A stretch of DNA of 64,000 nucleotides from Flavobacteriales bacterium (GTDB lineage Bacteria; Bacteroidota; Bacteroidia; Flavobacteriales_D; Sanyastnellaceae), in assembly GCA_027491075.1 (NCBI GenBank), contig JAIXWX010000034.1, forward strand, positions 248,001 to 312,000. The letters are read 5' to 3'. The position numbers and the translations under genes were made by a program. Shown piece after piece: positions 13,860 to 56,167 of the stretch (positions within the stretch are counted from its first letter, which is position 1; the number at the start of each line of letters is the position of its first letter). The notes beneath the pieces were generated by a model that had not been told where the DNA came from, made no database searches, and was given only the letters and a program-made list of their open reading frames with translations.

Positions 13860-15976
13860 GATAATTCGATGGTGATGTATGGATTGGATTTGGAAGGGGC
13901 ACCAGGTGTAGTGCTTTGTTTTTTTACTGTTCCTACCCCAATGATTTGTACTTTAATACCTTCTTGTTCTAAAAGGAATAGAGCATCCCTCAGTCCCATT
14001 CCAACCACATTGGGAACAGTTCCTTTTTTGGAGTTTCCTCTTTCTGTGAGCACTACTTTACCATGTTCTGATTTAGTGGATGCGTATGTTTGACTTGCTC
14101 CTATCGATTGTATTTGTAGTGCCTTGTAGACGGTATTTAATTCCTTAGCGGATCCGTCTTTAGATATGGGTACCACTGCATTTGCTAAAGCAAGTGAATC
14201 TGGTTTGCTAGAATTTTCATGAAACTCCAAGCGAGTCGCATAAATTTTATCGGCGAGTTCTTTGAATACAGGCGCGGCAACAGCACTACCGTAGTATTTG
14301 CCGCCCTTGGGTCGGTGAATAACAACGATGCAGCTGTACTTGGGTTGATCAGCGGGGAAGTATCCAACAAAGGATGCTCGGTATGAATTGTCTTCATATC
14401 CTCCGTTGTCATTGACACGTGCTGTACCTGTTTTTCCAGCCACTTTGTAAGGTGAATCAAGAAATACCTTATCCGCAGTGCCGCCGGGCTCCATTACACC
14501 TTCCATCATTTTGCGGCATTTCGCAAGTGTTTCTTTTTTGCAGATTTGTTCGTTCAACACCACGGCACCTTTGCGCTCTATGGTTCTTCCATTCTTTTTT
14601 ATTTCTTGAACAAAAAGTGGACGTACGAGCTTTCCTTCGTTGGCCACGGCATTATAAAAGGACAGAATTTGCAGTGGCGTAAATTGCGTTTCGTATCCGA
14701 TAGCAATCTGCGTTAGTGATAAAGCACTCCAACCTTTGTTTTTTGTGGAGGTATAAATTTTTGGAGCTGGCTCTCCTAAGAGTTCTAATTGCAGTGGCTT
14801 GCCTAAACCAAATGATTGCAGTTTGTCAAGAAACTTCTGAGGAGATTTTTCAAAGGCTCTTTTTGCAAGAAGGGCCGTGCCGACGTTGGATGATTTTTCA
14901 AATACTTGTTCTGCCGATATCGTACCATTTCCTCCTGTTTCAATATTTGAGTCGGTAAGTACTTGGTATCCTAGATCCAGACTTCCATTTCCTGTAGCTA
15001 CGCTGTCGGTAAGTTGAATGTTCCCTTCATCGAGCATCGCCATGATGGAGGGCAACTTGAAAGTAGATCCAGGTTCTACGCTTTGGGCAATGGCAATATT
15101 GAGCATCTCGTCGTATGCTCCAGAGGAGGTATTCAATGTGAGATTAGCAATGGCTCTTATATAGCCAGTCTCTACTTCCATCACTGCCGCACATCCCCAA
15201 TCTGCTTGTGATTCTTGGAGTTGGCGAAGCAGCGCATTGTGCGCTACATCCTGCAGATGCACGTCAATGGTTGCTACGATATCATTTCCAGGTTCGGGTT
15301 GCTCAACGTACTCATCGTTCATGGGGCGCCATTCGCCGCCTGCCATTTTCTCTTGAAGTTGCTTTCCTTTTTTTCCAGACAACAACGCATCATAGGCAAG
15401 TTCCAGTCCGACTTGATTGTCTTCTCTGTTTAAGCCGATAGTCCTAGCGGCGAGGTTGCCAAAAGGTTTTTTTCTCTTGCTTTTTTGAGGAAAGAAGAAA
15501 CCACTTTTATAGCGACCCTTGTTGATGAAGGGAAGTTTTTTGATTTCTTGAAGTTGATTGTAGTCTATGTTCTCGGCCAGCTTAAAGTAGCGCTCGTTGT
15601 TTGCTTTCGCACTTAATAGAGCCTTTTTGTATTCCGCTTTGGTTTTATCTCCTAGAACTCTGTGCAGTCCATCGCAAAGTGAGTCCAATTTTGATTTCCA
15701 TTCTTTAGCATCGAATTTGGCTTTGCTATCCCAACGTATTTCATAGATAGGAACACTGGTTGCGAGCAGGCTTCCATCGGAAGAATAAATTTGCCCTCTG
15801 GTGGGTGCAATTTCTGCAACGCGGTAGGCTTTACTTTCACCGAGTTTAAGTACCTCTGCATCTGGCATCGCTTGCAGGGCTATGATTTTAGCGAATATGA
15901 TCAATGCGATCAATGCTAGGATCATAGCAACAGCATAGGCCTTTTTTGATGTATCTTTTGCTAAATCTTCGCTCAT
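13856..15976 (-). CDS. ftsI: Septal penicillin-binding protein with PASTA domain (FtsI/PBP3-like)
   Basis: A class B transpeptidase (706 residues) that cross-links septal peptidoglycan with FtsW. One N-terminal membrane span (YAVAMILALIALIIFAKIIA) is followed by the dimerisation domain (APTRGQIYSSDGSLLA) and the transpeptidase domain. Active-site motifs are STFK near residue 303 (VEPGSTFKLPS), SSN (EKSSNVGTALLA) and KTG near residue 515 (VAGKTGTARVND). A C-terminal PASTA domain (TVPNVVGMGLRDALFLLEQE) is present, as is usual for Bacteroidota FtsI but absent from E. coli FtsI. It overlaps both ftsL-like and murE by four bases. Confidence 0.95.
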   Translation of the reverse strand: MSEDLAKDTSKKAYAVAMILALIALIIFAKIIALQAMPDAEVLKLGESKAYRVAEIAPTRGQIYSSDGSLLATSVPIYEIRWDSKAKFDAKEWKSKLDSLCDGLHRVLGDKTKAEYKKALLSAKANNERYFKLAENIDYNQLQEIKKLPFINKGRYKSGFFFPQKSKRKKPFGNLAARTIGLNREDNQVGLELAYDALLSGKKGKQLQEKMAGGEWRPMNDEYVEQPEPGNDIVATIDVHLQDVAHNALLRQLQESQADWGCAAVMEVETGYIRAIANLTLNTSSGAYDEMLNIAIAQSVEPGSTFKLPSIMAMLDEGNIQLTDSVATGNGSLDLGYQVLTDSNIETGGNGTISAEQVFEKSSNVGTALLAKRAFEKSPQKFLDKLQSFGLGKPLQLELLGEPAPKIYTSTKNKGWSALSLTQIAIGYETQFTPLQILSFYNAVANEGKLVRPLFVQEIKKNGRTIERKGAVVLNEQICKKETLAKCRKMMEGVMEPGGTADKVFLDSPYKVAGKTGTARVNDNGGYEDNSYRASFVGYFPADQPKYSCIVVIHRPKGGKYYGSAVAAPVFKELADKIYATRLEFHENSSKPDSLALANAVVPISKDGSAKELNTVYKALQIQSIGASQTYASTKSEHGKVVLTERGNSKKGTVPNVVGMGLRDALFLLEQEGIKVQIIGVGTVKKQSTTPGAPSKSNPYITIELS

Positions 15977-20881: not shown

Positions 20882-21658
20882 ATGAAAAAAATAACATTAA
20901 TTACTATTCTTACGGTGTTAATCACCAGTGCTTTTGCGCAAGACTTCCAAAAGTATAAAATCGCGCCCGTGGTAGGAGCTGGAATCGGTTGGCTCAATCC
21001 CGATTCTAAGTTTATCACCAATGAAGGAAACATGTTTCGTTTTGGTTATGGATTAGCGGTAGATATTCACTTCACTGAAAATTACGCCATCGGAACAGGG
21101 CTCAATGTATCCAACTTCGGAGGTACGCTTAGCTTTAAAGAGTCAGGTCGTTCCAATAACCAACAGTTGATTTGGCAAACTACCAGAGACTTCGATCTTC
21201 GCTATGTAGAAATTCCATTGTCGTTGAAGCTCCGCACCAACGAAATTGGTTACATGACGTACTGGGGTCAGTTCGGACTCATCGCAGGTGTAAACATTCG
21301 TGCACGTGGTGACAGCGAAATCGACTTTGAATCGGTCAAGTTAGAAACGGAATCTGGAGTAAATTGGGTGAAGTCCGATTTACCATCACTTACCTCAGAA
21401 GACGACGACATAAAAGACGATACTCAAATCTTCCGTGTAGGACTTTTGATCGGAGCTGGTATTGAGTATGGGCTTTCTGGTAATTCAGCAGTAGTAGTGG
21501 GAGTGACCTACAACAACGGTTTCACCAATGTGTTGAAAGGCGAGGTTGTTCAGACCGACGATCGCGATGAAGTAGTTTTTGAAAGTCAAAATCCAAAAAC
21601 ATCCAAGCTGAAGGCGATGTCACACATTGTATCCTTGAACGTTGGATTCAAGTTTTAA
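20882..21658 (+). CDS. Outer-membrane beta-barrel protein (PorT-like family)
   Basis: A 258-residue exported protein. Signal peptide MKKITLITILTVLITSAFAQ, then alternating strands with features of a small eight-strand barrel: PVVGAGIGWLNPDSKF, GYGLAVDIHFTENYAIGTGL, and terminal aromatic MSHIVSLNVGFKF. It resembles the PorT/DUF2490-like 'porin family' group of Bacteroidota; PorT itself takes part in T9SS function, but sequence alone does not place it as PorT. Its TAA stop overlaps the nadE ATG (TAATG), so the two are translationally coupled. Confidence 0.8.
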   Translation: MKKITLITILTVLITSAFAQDFQKYKIAPVVGAGIGWLNPDSKFITNEGNMFRFGYGLAVDIHFTENYAIGTGLNVSNFGGTLSFKESGRSNNQQLIWQTTRDFDLRYVEIPLSLKLRTNEIGYMTYWGQFGLIAGVNIRARGDSEIDFESVKLETESGVNWVKSDLPSLTSEDDDIKDDTQIFRVGLLIGAGIEYGLSGNSAVVVGVTYNNGFTNVLKGEVVQTDDRDEVVFESQNPKTSKLKAMSHIVSLNVGFKF

Positions 21659-22467
21659 TGCAACATCAAAAAATAGTGGAGCACATGGTAGCATGGCTGA
21701 AGAGTTATGCAGACAGTGCTCGTGTCAATGGTTTTGTAGTGGGTGTCAGCGGCGGAATAGATTCGGCGCTGACATCTACATTATGCGCGATGACGGGCAA
21801 GGATACGTTATTGTTAGAGTTGCCCATTTATCAAGCCGTCAGTCAAGTGTCTAGAGCGCAAGAGCACATGCAGTGGCTTGCCTCGAAATATTCCAACGTC
21901 AAGACCCATCGCGTGGAGCTCACTCCCGTATTTGATGGATTTATGAAATCCGTTCCAGCCACAGAGAGTGAAGAATTGCTTCATTTAAGTTTGGCCAATA
22001 CCCGATCTCGATTGCGGATGATGACTCTGTATTATTTCGCAGGCATTCACCGCTTATTGGTTGCAGGCACTGGCAATAAAGTTGAGGACTTTGGAGTAGG
22101 ATTTTACACCAAGTACGGCGACGGTGGAGTAGATGTTTCTCCCATTGCCGACTTGATGAAAACAGAAGTGTATGCCCTCGCTCAGTATTTAGGAGTAATT
22201 GACAGCATTCAAAAAGCAAAGCCCACAGATGGTTTATGGGGCGATGATCGCAGCGATGAAGATCAGATAGGCGCCTCCTATCCTGAGCTCGAGTGGGCGA
22301 TGGTAGAAATAGCAAACAACGAGAACACGTTTCCTTCACTGGATTCTTATACTGAAAGACAAAAGACCGTTCTTCAAATCTATTGGAGAATGAATCGAGC
22401 CAATCAACACAAGATGAATCCTATTCCAGTGTGCCTCATTCCTGAAAATCTAAAAATTAGTCACTAG
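21658..22467 (+). CDS. nadE: NAD+ synthase, ammonia-dependent
   Basis: NadE amidates nicotinic acid adenine dinucleotide to NAD+. The 269-residue protein has only the synthetase domain: ATP pyrophosphatase loop VVGVSGGIDSALTSTL near residue 30, RSRLRMMTLYYFAG, the motif GTGNKVEDFGVGFYTKYGDG, and PTDGLWGDDRSDEDQIG. Absence of a nitrilase-type glutaminase domain indicates use of ammonia. The last codons and the TAG stop are provided by the first units of a TAGTCAC heptamer array, so the extreme C-terminus (ISH) comes from repeat sequence. Confidence 0.96.
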   Translation: MQHQKIVEHMVAWLKSYADSARVNGFVVGVSGGIDSALTSTLCAMTGKDTLLLELPIYQAVSQVSRAQEHMQWLASKYSNVKTHRVELTPVFDGFMKSVPATESEELLHLSLANTRSRLRMMTLYYFAGIHRLLVAGTGNKVEDFGVGFYTKYGDGGVDVSPIADLMKTEVYALAQYLGVIDSIQKAKPTDGLWGDDRSDEDQIGASYPELEWAMVEIANNENTFPSLDSYTERQKTVLQIYWRMNRANQHKMNPIPVCLIPENLKISH

Positions 22468-22520
22468 TCTCTAGTCTCTAGTCTCTAGTCACTAGTCACT
22501 AGTCTCTAGTCACTAGTCAC
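22458..22520. repeat. Heptamer tandem repeat (TAGTCAC/TAGTCTC, nine copies)
   Basis: Nine head-to-tail seven-base units fill 63 bases. The order of the variable base is A,T,T,T,A,A,T,A,A in TAGTCwC, with no other change. The array begins inside nadE and supplies its stop codon. Each unit carries TAG, and with a period of seven the TAGs rotate through the three frames, so any frame entering it is stopped within 21 bases. Such heptamers expand by slippage; copy number probably varies between strains. Confidence 0.95.
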
Positions 22521-22550
22521 TATGCTACCCCCCGAAGCTATTTACTTGAT

Positions 22551-22558
22551 TAATTTTG
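22551..22558 (+). promoter_or_regulatory. -7 element for the serine hydrolase gene
   Basis: TAATTTTG fits TAnnTTTG, seven bases before the ATG at 22565 and 34 before the alternative ATG at 22592. If real, the transcript would have a very short leader or would favour the later start. Confidence 0.35.
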
Positions 22559-22564
22559 CTGAGA

Positions 22565-23638
22565 ATGATGCAAAAAACATTTGGGCAAATGACTACGGAA
22601 AAAGAGACTTCGCTTCAAACCATTCTTGACAAAACAGTTGATGGTAAAAAGGTGTTTGGGACATCTTTCGCCATAAAAAAAGATGTACTGGTTTGGTTCG
22701 GGGCGTCGGGCAATTTGTCAATAGATCAACCTTATTTCATTGCAAGCACTACCAAATTGTTTACAACGGCAATCATCCTAAAACTGAGAGCCAATGGTAA
22801 ACTTCGTCTTGATGACAACATCAGTCAGTACATTGAGAAATCAATTTTATCAGGACTTCACTTCTTCAACGGGAAAGATTATTCAGAAGTACTCACCATT
22901 AGACATCTGCTATCTCATACTTCTGGTTTACCTGACTATTTCCAAGGAAAAGGAACAAATGGAAGCAGCTTAGAGAATGAAATAACAGCGGGGAATGACC
23001 AGTTCTGGTCTTTTGAGCAATCTATTGAAAGAACAAAGCAAATGAAACCGCTTTTTGTACCCGGGACAAAAAGGAAAGCAAATTATTCAGATGCGAATTT
23101 TCAACTTTTAGGAAGAATCATAGAGCATATAACGCATAAGTCGTATTCTGATAACTGTAAAGAATTGATCATTCAACCGCTTGGTTTGACCCATACCTAT
23201 CTCTATCAAAACTCAACGGATAAAACACCAAAGACACTTTTTTACAAGAGCAACGAACTGAATATACCGAAAGCAATGTCCTCTTTTGGAGCGGACGGCG
23301 GAATGGTTTCCACTTCAAGCGATATGCTCACATTTATTGAAGCATTTTTTATGGGAAAGATATTCCCCAAAGACTACATCAGCGAATTGCAAGAATGGAA
23401 TAGAATATTTTTTCCGATGAAATCGGGAATTGGAATTCACTTGTTTAAACTTCCATGGCTTTTTAATCCGACAGGTGCTGTTCCTTATTTCATTGGACAT
23501 TCAGGACTTTCTGGGGCATTAGCATACTACAGCCCTAAAGAGAATATTTTTGTAGTGGGTACGGTAAATCAGGTGGCCCATCCTGACATTTCCTTCAGGA
23601 CCATGATTAAATTGACTCAAGAAGTCATGAAGAAATAA
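22565..23638 (+). CDS. Serine hydrolase of the beta-lactamase/PBP4 (class C) family
   Basis: About 357 residues. The class C fold motifs are present: nucleophile STTK near residue 61 (FIASTTKLFTTAIILKL), tyrosine motif YSD (KANYSDANFQLLGRI), RHLLSHTSGLPDYFQGK, and HSGLSGALAYYS in place of the KTG/HxG box. No signal peptide is visible, which suggests a cytoplasmic enzyme. The frame is open to TTG 22556; ATG 22565, 22568 or 22592 are all possible starts and I use the first ATG. The role may be peptidase or esterase; antibiotic hydrolysis cannot be inferred. It stands alone after the heptamer array. Confidence 0.88.
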   Translation: MMQKTFGQMTTEKETSLQTILDKTVDGKKVFGTSFAIKKDVLVWFGASGNLSIDQPYFIASTTKLFTTAIILKLRANGKLRLDDNISQYIEKSILSGLHFFNGKDYSEVLTIRHLLSHTSGLPDYFQGKGTNGSSLENEITAGNDQFWSFEQSIERTKQMKPLFVPGTKRKANYSDANFQLLGRIIEHITHKSYSDNCKELIIQPLGLTHTYLYQNSTDKTPKTLFYKSNELNIPKAMSSFGADGGMVSTSSDMLTFIEAFFMGKIFPKDYISELQEWNRIFFPMKSGIGIHLFKLPWLFNPTGAVPYFIGHSGLSGALAYYSPKENIFVVGTVNQVAHPDISFRTMIKLTQEVMKK

Positions 23639-43001: not shown

Positions 43002-43139
43002 TTTTCTTTATATAAAAATAAAATAGCATTGCTTGGCGGTAGTGGCGTCAATTTGCTTTCCTAGTTTAAAAAGATTCCGTTATGAGAATCCTTTGTTTTC
43101 TATTCGGCTTTATGGATGCACTAGTCACTCGAAATTGAC

Positions 43140-43147
43140 TACGTTTG
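43140..43147 (+). promoter_or_regulatory. Possible -7 element upstream of the LytTR operon
   Basis: TACGTTTG matches TAnnTTTG and lies 97 bases before the response regulator ATG, just upstream of the LytTR-type direct repeats. If it is the promoter, the repeats would lie in the transcribed leader, which fits autorepression better than activation. A CACTAGTCACT match to the heptamer repeat is at 43119-43129. Confidence 0.35.
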
Positions 43148-43162
43148 CGAAGGTAAGGTATC

Positions 43163-43198
43163 AAATTCTCAAAAAAGTATATCGATTTCTCAAAAAAA
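43163..43198 (+). promoter_or_regulatory. Candidate LytTR binding site upstream of the response regulator
   Basis: Two direct half-sites, TTCTC-AAAAAA at 43166 and TTCTC-AAAAAA at 43187, start exactly 21 bases (two helical turns) apart. LytTR proteins such as AgrA bind paired direct repeats with this geometry. A closely similar site is found at 46902, upstream of the next large gene. Confidence 0.6.
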
Positions 43199-43236
43199 GA
43201 GTGCACCTTGGAGGTTCGACTTTTACATTAGTTCGT

Positions 43237-44013
43237 ATGGTGAAATGTGTGGTTATTGATGATGAGAAAAATTCTAGAGACTTTTTGGTAAATCTGATTG
43301 GTCAGTATTGTCCAGATATTTCGGTGATTGGCACTGCTAGTGGTGGGGTTGAGGGACTTCAAACGGTGGCGGAGCTGAAACCGGATGCGGTATTCTTGGA
43401 CATTCGCATGAGCGATATGGATGGGTTTACTGTAATGCAACGATTGCCCGAGCCGCGGCCCATGGTCATTTTCGTCACTGCGTATCAAAAATATGCCCTT
43501 CGAGCCATCAAGGCCAGCGCAATTGATTATCTGCTCAAGCCAGTAAATATTGGTGAATTACAAGATACTTCAAGAAAATTGAAGCAATTGCATGAACTCC
43601 GGTTTTCCAATCCTCATTTTAGAAATGAATACAATGACGCACTGAAATTGGTGATGCAAAGTGCCAGTGAATCCCAGCCATTGCGCATTGCATTGCCTCA
43701 TCATAATGGATATCGATTTGAACGCATGAATCAAATCGTTCGGCTGGAGAGTGACAGCAATTATACCACCGTGTTTTTAGAATCAGGAGAGAAAGTAATG
43801 GTGAGCAAGCCGATGAAGCATTTTGAGGATTTTCTAGATGAATCGATGTTTATTCGCATACACAACTCGCACATCATTAATATGAAGTTTTTAAAAAGCT
43901 ATAACAGAGACAAAGGAGTAGCTGAATTAGAGGGACAGAAGGAAATTCCTATTTCCAAAAGAAGATTAGCCGTTTTTATGGAAGCGATGAAGAAAACCTT
44001 TTACAAACCTTGA
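43237..44013 (+). CDS. LytTR-family response regulator
   Basis: A 258-residue regulator. The receiver domain starts MVKCVVIDDEKNSRDFL, with acidic pair Asp9-Asp10, phospho-acceptor Asp55 (AVFLDIRMSDMDG) and lysine in YLLKPVNIGEL. The LytTR DNA-binding domain spans about 150-258 (IVRLESDSNYTTVFLESGEK, FIRIHNSHIINMKFLKSY). ATG 43237 is chosen because it begins at the receiver's first strand; the frame is open further upstream but over the regulatory region. The stop overlaps the kinase start (TGATG), so both are made together. Confidence 0.95.
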   Translation: MVKCVVIDDEKNSRDFLVNLIGQYCPDISVIGTASGGVEGLQTVAELKPDAVFLDIRMSDMDGFTVMQRLPEPRPMVIFVTAYQKYALRAIKASAIDYLLKPVNIGELQDTSRKLKQLHELRFSNPHFRNEYNDALKLVMQSASESQPLRIALPHHNGYRFERMNQIVRLESDSNYTTVFLESGEKVMVSKPMKHFEDFLDESMFIRIHNSHIINMKFLKSYNRDKGVAELEGQKEIPISKRRLAVFMEAMKKTFYKP

Positions 44014-56129: not shown

Positions 56130-56167
56130 GTTCCCTCGTTCCCGTTCCCGTTCCCATTCCCGTTCCC
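56130..56167. repeat. Hexamer tandem repeat at the carB 3' end
   Basis: Five contiguous RTTCCC hexamers (GTTCCC x3, ATTCCC, GTTCCC) occupy 56138-56167, with one more GTTCCC at 56130-56135. The last base overlaps the carB TAG stop. A second array of the same unit lies at 59211-59234, on the other side of carB. Confidence 0.85.

Follow-up and report, generated by a model that had tools for sequence, protein, structure and literature searches.

In the window, by which we mean the whole stretch of 64,000 nucleotides that was analysed, the NAD(+) synthase gene nadE runs into an array of tandem heptamers and stops there. The gene (21658–22467, + strand; 269 codons plus stop) is identified by the NCBIfam model TIGR00552 (165 bits against a cutoff of 64). 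As reported in the first-pass annotation of this DNA, nine TAGTCwC units begin within its coding sequence and occupy 22458–22520 on the + strand; they are arranged head-to-tail, measure exactly 7 bases each and comprise five TAGTCAC and four TAGTCTC. Tandem Repeats Finder extends the array to 22522 (period 7, 9.3 copies, 93% matches) and scores it highest of all arrays in the window. The 3′ end of nadE, which enters the array by 10 bases, reads AAA ATT AGT CAC TAG: the last two codons (Ser-His) are taken from unit 1, whose own TAG is out of frame, and the stop codon (22465–22467, + strand) is the TAG of unit 2, so that the final residues and the stop are indeed repeat-derived, as had been proposed. 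The next open reading frame downstream (22556–23638, + strand; 360 codons) has its called start 33 bases past the array.

A seven-base period places TAG in all three forward frames, as was also noted earlier, and since CTAG is its own reverse complement the TAGTCwC array closes all six. Matches to two consecutive units, with up to two mismatches, number 10 in the window compared with a shuffle mean of 1.0, and none of 100 shuffles reached 10. Single TAGTCWC sites lie outside the array at five places besides 43119. At the latter, CACTAGTCACT (43119–43129) had been suggested as a seed or remnant of the array; it is an ordinary coding match inside a 326-codon gene (43033–44013). The window also contains a CGTTCC hexamer array of 5.2 copies at 56137–56167 (Tandem Repeats Finder).

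The first-pass annotation had named uniqueness of the array as the finding that would speak against its reading, and had proposed counting such arrays relative to gene ends; the nadE array proves to be one of many. In the window's genome (G000; 3.02 Mb in 34 contigs), exact double units of TAGTCNC are found on nine contigs, and six contig ends consist of TAGTCNC-type arrays, of which three read outward and three inward, the pattern expected had three long arrays broken the assembly. A list that is not exhaustive comprises 14 heptamer arrays or array ends (C1 start, C1 end, C2 start, C5 end, C11, C15 start, C15 at 4367, three on C19, C22 with nadE, C24, C25 and C26 end). The A/T alternation, described as the only variable position, holds within the nadE array but not elsewhere: long arrays mix TAGTCAC, TAGTCGT, TAGTCTC, TAGTATC and TAGATAC. 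A stretch of 63 bases is identical between the arrays at the C5 end and the C1 end, with several unit types in the same order. A second heptamer family, TTTGGAA/TTTAGAA, occurs on C15 and C25. Adjoining the TTTGGAA heptamers between two genes of C25 (~313950–314065; ~13950–14065 of locus L181) is a tandem array of ~14-base units, CCTGATTCGCAAAA and variants, and copies related to it come after the cutC array on C15.

Most of the known G000 arrays end a gene. At nine of the 14, a total of 10 genes run in and stop on an array TAG; family searches identify nadE, acs, a gene for a T9SS-sorted protein, pdhA, aspS, brx with the convergent gatC, an agmatinase-like gene and a weakly matching radical-SAM protein, and we take the remaining 241-codon gene, from its sequence, to be cutC. 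A single four-unit array stops both brx and gatC, from opposite sides, which so short an array can do because CTAG is its own reverse complement. The other five arrays supply no stop: those on C24 and C25 lie 16 nt and 8 nt after a TGA, respectively, one on C19 lies 69 nt before a start, and those at the C1 start and C26 end sit at contig ends, upstream of genes. TAG is the stop of just 69 of the 339 genes with a stop in C25 plus the window. Family profiles reach the last positions, or nearly so, in acs, aspS, brx, gatC and pdhA, and protein lengths differ from those of 1:1 orthologues in the genomes G001 and G002 by −3 to +5 residues, the exception being nadE of G002 (−6). Protein lengths are thus nearly constant, and the array therefore starts where the ancestral stop lay and not well downstream of it.

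Placement was also assessed by a scan, blind to sequence, for any array of period 4 to 12 in stretches of G000, G001, G002 and G013, which were chosen regardless of arrays with the exception of the window, so that the nadE array is among those counted; here and in the comparisons with orthologues below, genes were called with a home-made codon-score caller, not taken from curated annotation. The four genomes yielded 73 arrays with a period of 7 or 8: 10 of them overlap a stop codon and another 13 start 0–10 nt past one, with the next three bins of 10 nt holding four, one and one. An array lies within 10 nt of 23 of the 64 flanking 3′ ends, compared with four of the 70 5′ ends (p = 1e-5); a smaller pool analysed earlier agreed (19/56 versus 4/63). 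The other 41 of the 64 3′ flanks are more than 10 nt from the array, so that many arrays sit away from stops. When the 70 nt behind G002 stops were shuffled, no arrays arose in 564 trials. Array-bearing gene ends number 2 of 338 in the G000 sample (C25 plus the window), 1 of 336 in G001, 12 of 397 in G002, 17 of 300 in G013, and 1 of 818 at nadE loci; for G001 the initial stretches were the longest contigs, which are array-poor, and shorter ones were added before the final base rate.

In G013 the stop-proximal unit often carries the stop, and the distal units differ at that very base (GGTAGAC then GGTGGAC; GTTAGTG then GTTCGTG; GGCTAAAA then GGCGAAAT). This fits either selection for a single stop in an otherwise drifting array or an array that was copied out of the stop region and later homogenised. 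The idea of a family that uniquely keeps TAG was dropped: TAG arrays are frequent among relatives (32 of 120 genomes), yet in several the control word read backwards, GAT, is at least as frequent, and the pattern search by itself is therefore no proof of a bias towards stops. A search pattern for the 5′ borders of arrays (a non-T seven bases upstream) matched only five places, since the base at that position is often T. In G119 and G134, period-7 runs were seen whose neighbouring units share little but TAG (e.g. TAGTTCG, TAGGGGT, TAGGTGG, TAGCTGG); they may reflect pressure on the arrays to retain TAG, or may result from the TAG pattern used in the search.

A period of seven prevails in some of these genomes. 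In 400 kb of G013, 36 arrays have period 7 and six have period 8, with none at the other periods from 4 to 12; 553 kb of G002 hold 25 of period 7, one of period 8 and two of period 9. Period 7 is not over-represented in G001 (three arrays versus four of period 8), and the G000 stretches (C25 plus the window) contain two of period 7, none of period 8, two of period 6 and one of period 12. At the nadE loci of relatives and other Flavobacteriia (911 kb), there are 11 arrays of period 7, whilst no period within 4–24 other than the multiples of 7 has more than four. Three exact units of TAGTCwC are present in 11 of 200 genomes; a spread by kinship was not taken as vertical descent, genomes of other families carrying TAGTCwC too.

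Comparison with relatives reveals different arrays at the same stops. The first-pass annotation had held that its reading would suffer if strains without the array shared the nadE C-terminus by chance only; relatives in fact end the gene differently. The sister species G002 ends nadE, six residues shorter, on a TAGGGGT array in place of TAGTCwC; in G022 (another genus of the same family) nadE ends on the octamer TGATTGGG/T, in G010 it has no array, and the G001 contig ends inside the gene. Of the 109 nadE orthologues that have a stop followed by 40 nt or more, only three (G000, G002 and G022) have an array there, and nadE is therefore no special target. Elsewhere, the agmatinase-like gene has a heptamer end in G000 and an octamer end (RTAATAGG) in G001; brx of G001 ends on an octamer array and its cutC on another 7-base unit, and the radical-SAM gene of G002 ends on the octamer TTGAGGAG.

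At a fixed array score threshold of 12, five of 17 orthologous gene ends bear an array (three of eight in G001 and two of nine in G002), and in all five its sequence is a different one. This exceeds the rate for all gene ends of these two genomes (13/733; p = 2e-5), although the G001 assembly is 69% complete and may be fragmented at repeats, possibly depressing its base rate, and also the rate for gene ends with a spacer of at least 60 nt (12/228; p = 0.003). The other 12 of the 17 ends have no array at threshold, so that arrays come and go; for the pdhA and gatC arrays of G000 none was found at threshold in the sisters examined. Arrays seen by eye but below threshold, at acs (G001 and G002), aspS and brx (G002) and gatC (G001), are outside the five. 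Rows whose gene end lies off the contig were dropped (nadE of G001 and one part of brx of G002), and the T9SS protein, whose relatives are paralogues, was for that reason excluded from the 17; of its two relatives in G001, one has a score of 18, which would make it array-bearing. G010, also outside the 17, has an array at threshold in one of seven scored orthologues (acs). Arrays present in one genome only were found at genes that are presumably PCCB-like (G001), cytochrome-c-peroxidase-like (G002) and EamA-like (G000), the names being read from their sequences alone. On contig C42 of G002 (L207, L227), the convergent genes brx and aspS have TAGTGAC-type arrays in inverted orientation in the spacer between them; the arrangement of the two genes differs from that in G000.

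The nadE array is a real feature and a dispersed heptameric repeat of a known kind. Like other heptameric simple sequence repeats of bacteria, the arrays described here consist of 7-base head-to-tail units at many, mainly non-coding, loci per genome, with period 7 in excess except in G001. The STRR heptanucleotides of heterocystous cyanobacteria, also seven-base repeats in tandem and spread over many intergenic sites, are of the same repeat type, but differ in sequence and host. The REP/BIME elements of enterobacteria, longer imperfect palindromes that go with a RAYT transposase and can fold as RNA, resemble the present arrays in their location at gene 3′ ends and in RNA folding, but are not 7-base head-to-tail arrays.

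Two published systems come closer. The TAACTGA direct repeats of marine Beggiatoaceae, cyanobacteria and some Bacteroidetes (MacGregor 2015, PMC4679880) are likewise tandem heptamers at many loci that supply three-frame stops when read forward, and 13 sets overlap the stop of the upstream gene; long arrays are present in some Bacteroidetes and missing from close relatives, and contigs end in repeats (PMC4679880). The unit differs from the TAGTCAC and TAGTCTC of nadE, however, and TAACTGA closes one strand only, whereas the CTAG-bearing TAGTCwC closes both. Most TAACTGA sets also sit just before a start codon, commonly by a few bases (PMC4679880), unlike the arrays here, which lie within 10 nt of few starts and many ends. 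The G-rich heptamers GGGAATC of Xanthomonas and GGGGAYT of Nostoc (Rehm et al. 2015, PMC4692102) are dispersed and intergenic; many lie up to 50 nt from a stop on the coding strand or overlap it, and their length varies between relatives. The same paper mentions an STRR case in Calothrix, and cites a 2007 report of heptamer over-representation in bacteria as well as previous studies of polymerase slippage (PMC4692102). Those units contain runs of at least three G, whereas TAGTCwC has no G-run and so would form no G-quadruplex.

That heptamers overlap stops and close three frames has thus already been published for other repeats (MacGregor 2015; Rehm 2015). The portion of the TAACTGA account drawn on here contains no swap for an unrelated array at the same stop (PMC4679880), and the corresponding portion of Rehm et al. 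pools positions over 0–50 nt, with neither array-derived stops as a rule nor sequence exchange at one stop (PMC4692102); a search of open-licence full texts found no report of the exchange of unrelated arrays at the same stop. What looks new is how sharply the arrays peak at the stop, that sister species have one array in place of another at the same stop, and that octamers behave likewise. The last codons and stop of housekeeping genes can be a simple repeat that is swapped between species with hardly any change in protein length, and annotated C-termini in such genomes are therefore partly repeat-encoded. An old question, why 7-base repeats prevail in bacteria and gather at gene ends, also becomes testable.

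The nadE array is probably one locus of a set of dispersed short tandem repeats that grew by slippage and settled at the 3′ edges of genes. A repeat would arise at, or be copied to, the region of a stop codon, and the array may then lengthen and shorten by slippage and swap sequence with other arrays of the genome. Since three does not divide the period, a unit containing TAG, TAA or TGA would close every frame of its strand within about seven codons, and one containing CTAG or TTAG would close the opposite strand too. The native stop could be lost and the array stop take over, with a few C-terminal residues changed; because a 7-base stop-bearing unit stops all frames, this replacement would come at little cost. 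The array would be passively tolerated at the gene end, rather than selected for, and the gene would come to rely on it for termination. Exchange between arrays, to which the 63 bases common to the C5 and C1 ends point, may explain why one family is common to many genes of one genome.

Slippage, exchange and cheap stop replacement are enough to account for the nadE case. Passive settling alone does not account for the precision with which arrays start at the stop when the whole spacer is available; a mutational bias at the stop or an insertion process may be the cause. We also entertain, tentatively and with less confidence, that the stop-codon region is a recurrent birth site, where unrelated arrays of period 7 or 8 are born, spread and are replaced at the same gene ends; the position would then be older than the sequence, perhaps since DNA just past the final translated codon is more prone to breakage or mispairing. 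If so, array instability should track the transcription and translation of the upstream gene.

Other explanations have to be weighed against this reading. That short spacers put any array near a stop by chance is very improbable: the samples are ~89–93% coding, but 19 of 61 arrays are near a stop where uniform placement in spacers of the real lengths predicts 7.1, or 10.1 when the 50 nt before every start are barred (p = 0.00035), and with no matching peak at gene starts the position counts already contradict it. The arrays might instead be selected as fail-safe translation terminators, their all-frame stops catching readthrough or frameshifted ribosomes between close or convergent genes. The closure of six frames, the array that ends brx and gatC from both sides, and the G013 arrays, in which proximal units have TAG or TAA and distal ones often do not, as if the stop were kept where needed, agree with such a role. 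The G013 pattern is, however, also what one required stop would produce; with 9 to more than 50 units the arrays are far longer than any such function demands, stop-free TCCGGCG arrays abut stops as well, and most genes have no array (2 of 338 gene ends bear one in C25 plus the window). We therefore regard this explanation as unlikely. The description of the nadE array as a ‘universal stop’ is borne out insofar as it provides the stop of nadE and closes the frames; a selected role of this kind is possible, but lies beyond the reach of sequence data.

A shade less likely is insertion of the arrays by an element or repair process aimed at stops or at the edge of ribosome cover, where naked RNA, R-loops and breaks might seed repeats. 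The peak of array starts around the stop and the different arrays of sisters at the same stops would be expected from it, and the sense strand is the G-richer in 20 of 25 uneven arrays (p = 0.004), in line with the Xanthomonas and Nostoc repeats of Rehm et al. Against this, the analysis identified neither an element nor a target duplication nor an enzyme, R-loops enter as conjecture only, and the TAGTCAC family itself occurs in both orientations relative to the gene. It is distinctly unlikely that the arrays are 3′ RNA elements comparable to REP/BIME, with a folded transcript that protects or ends the mRNA. Positions 22440–22560 of the window are predicted to fold at −27.9 kcal/mol (z −4.24; lower than in any of 200 shuffles), and z is −2.25 or lower at nine of the 10 G000 gene ends. 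Folding comes with the CTAG palindrome, however, and among 26 stop-hugging arrays chosen blind to sequence only eight have z < −2.2, so that it is not the common denominator; the RTAATAGG octamer (z 0.6) and TCCGGCG (z 0.3 to 1.8) fold no better than shuffles. An intrinsic terminator was likewise rejected, as no terminator-like site, that is, a G+C-rich hairpin followed by a T run, was found within 22300–22800.

Two further kinds of 3′ sequence were observed. Behind T9SS paralogues on C18 and C25 of G000 (L297, L300) and behind the agmatinase-like gene of G002 (L210) there is another 3′ element, which starts at a TAG stop and contains the short hairpin-like words ACTCGCTCCGCTCGGGGAG and TTCGGCGAG. 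At three loci of G002 (L236, L252 and L255), hairpin words such as TTCTCGGC...GCCGAGAA lie amid or after TGACAAA heptamer arrays behind genes.
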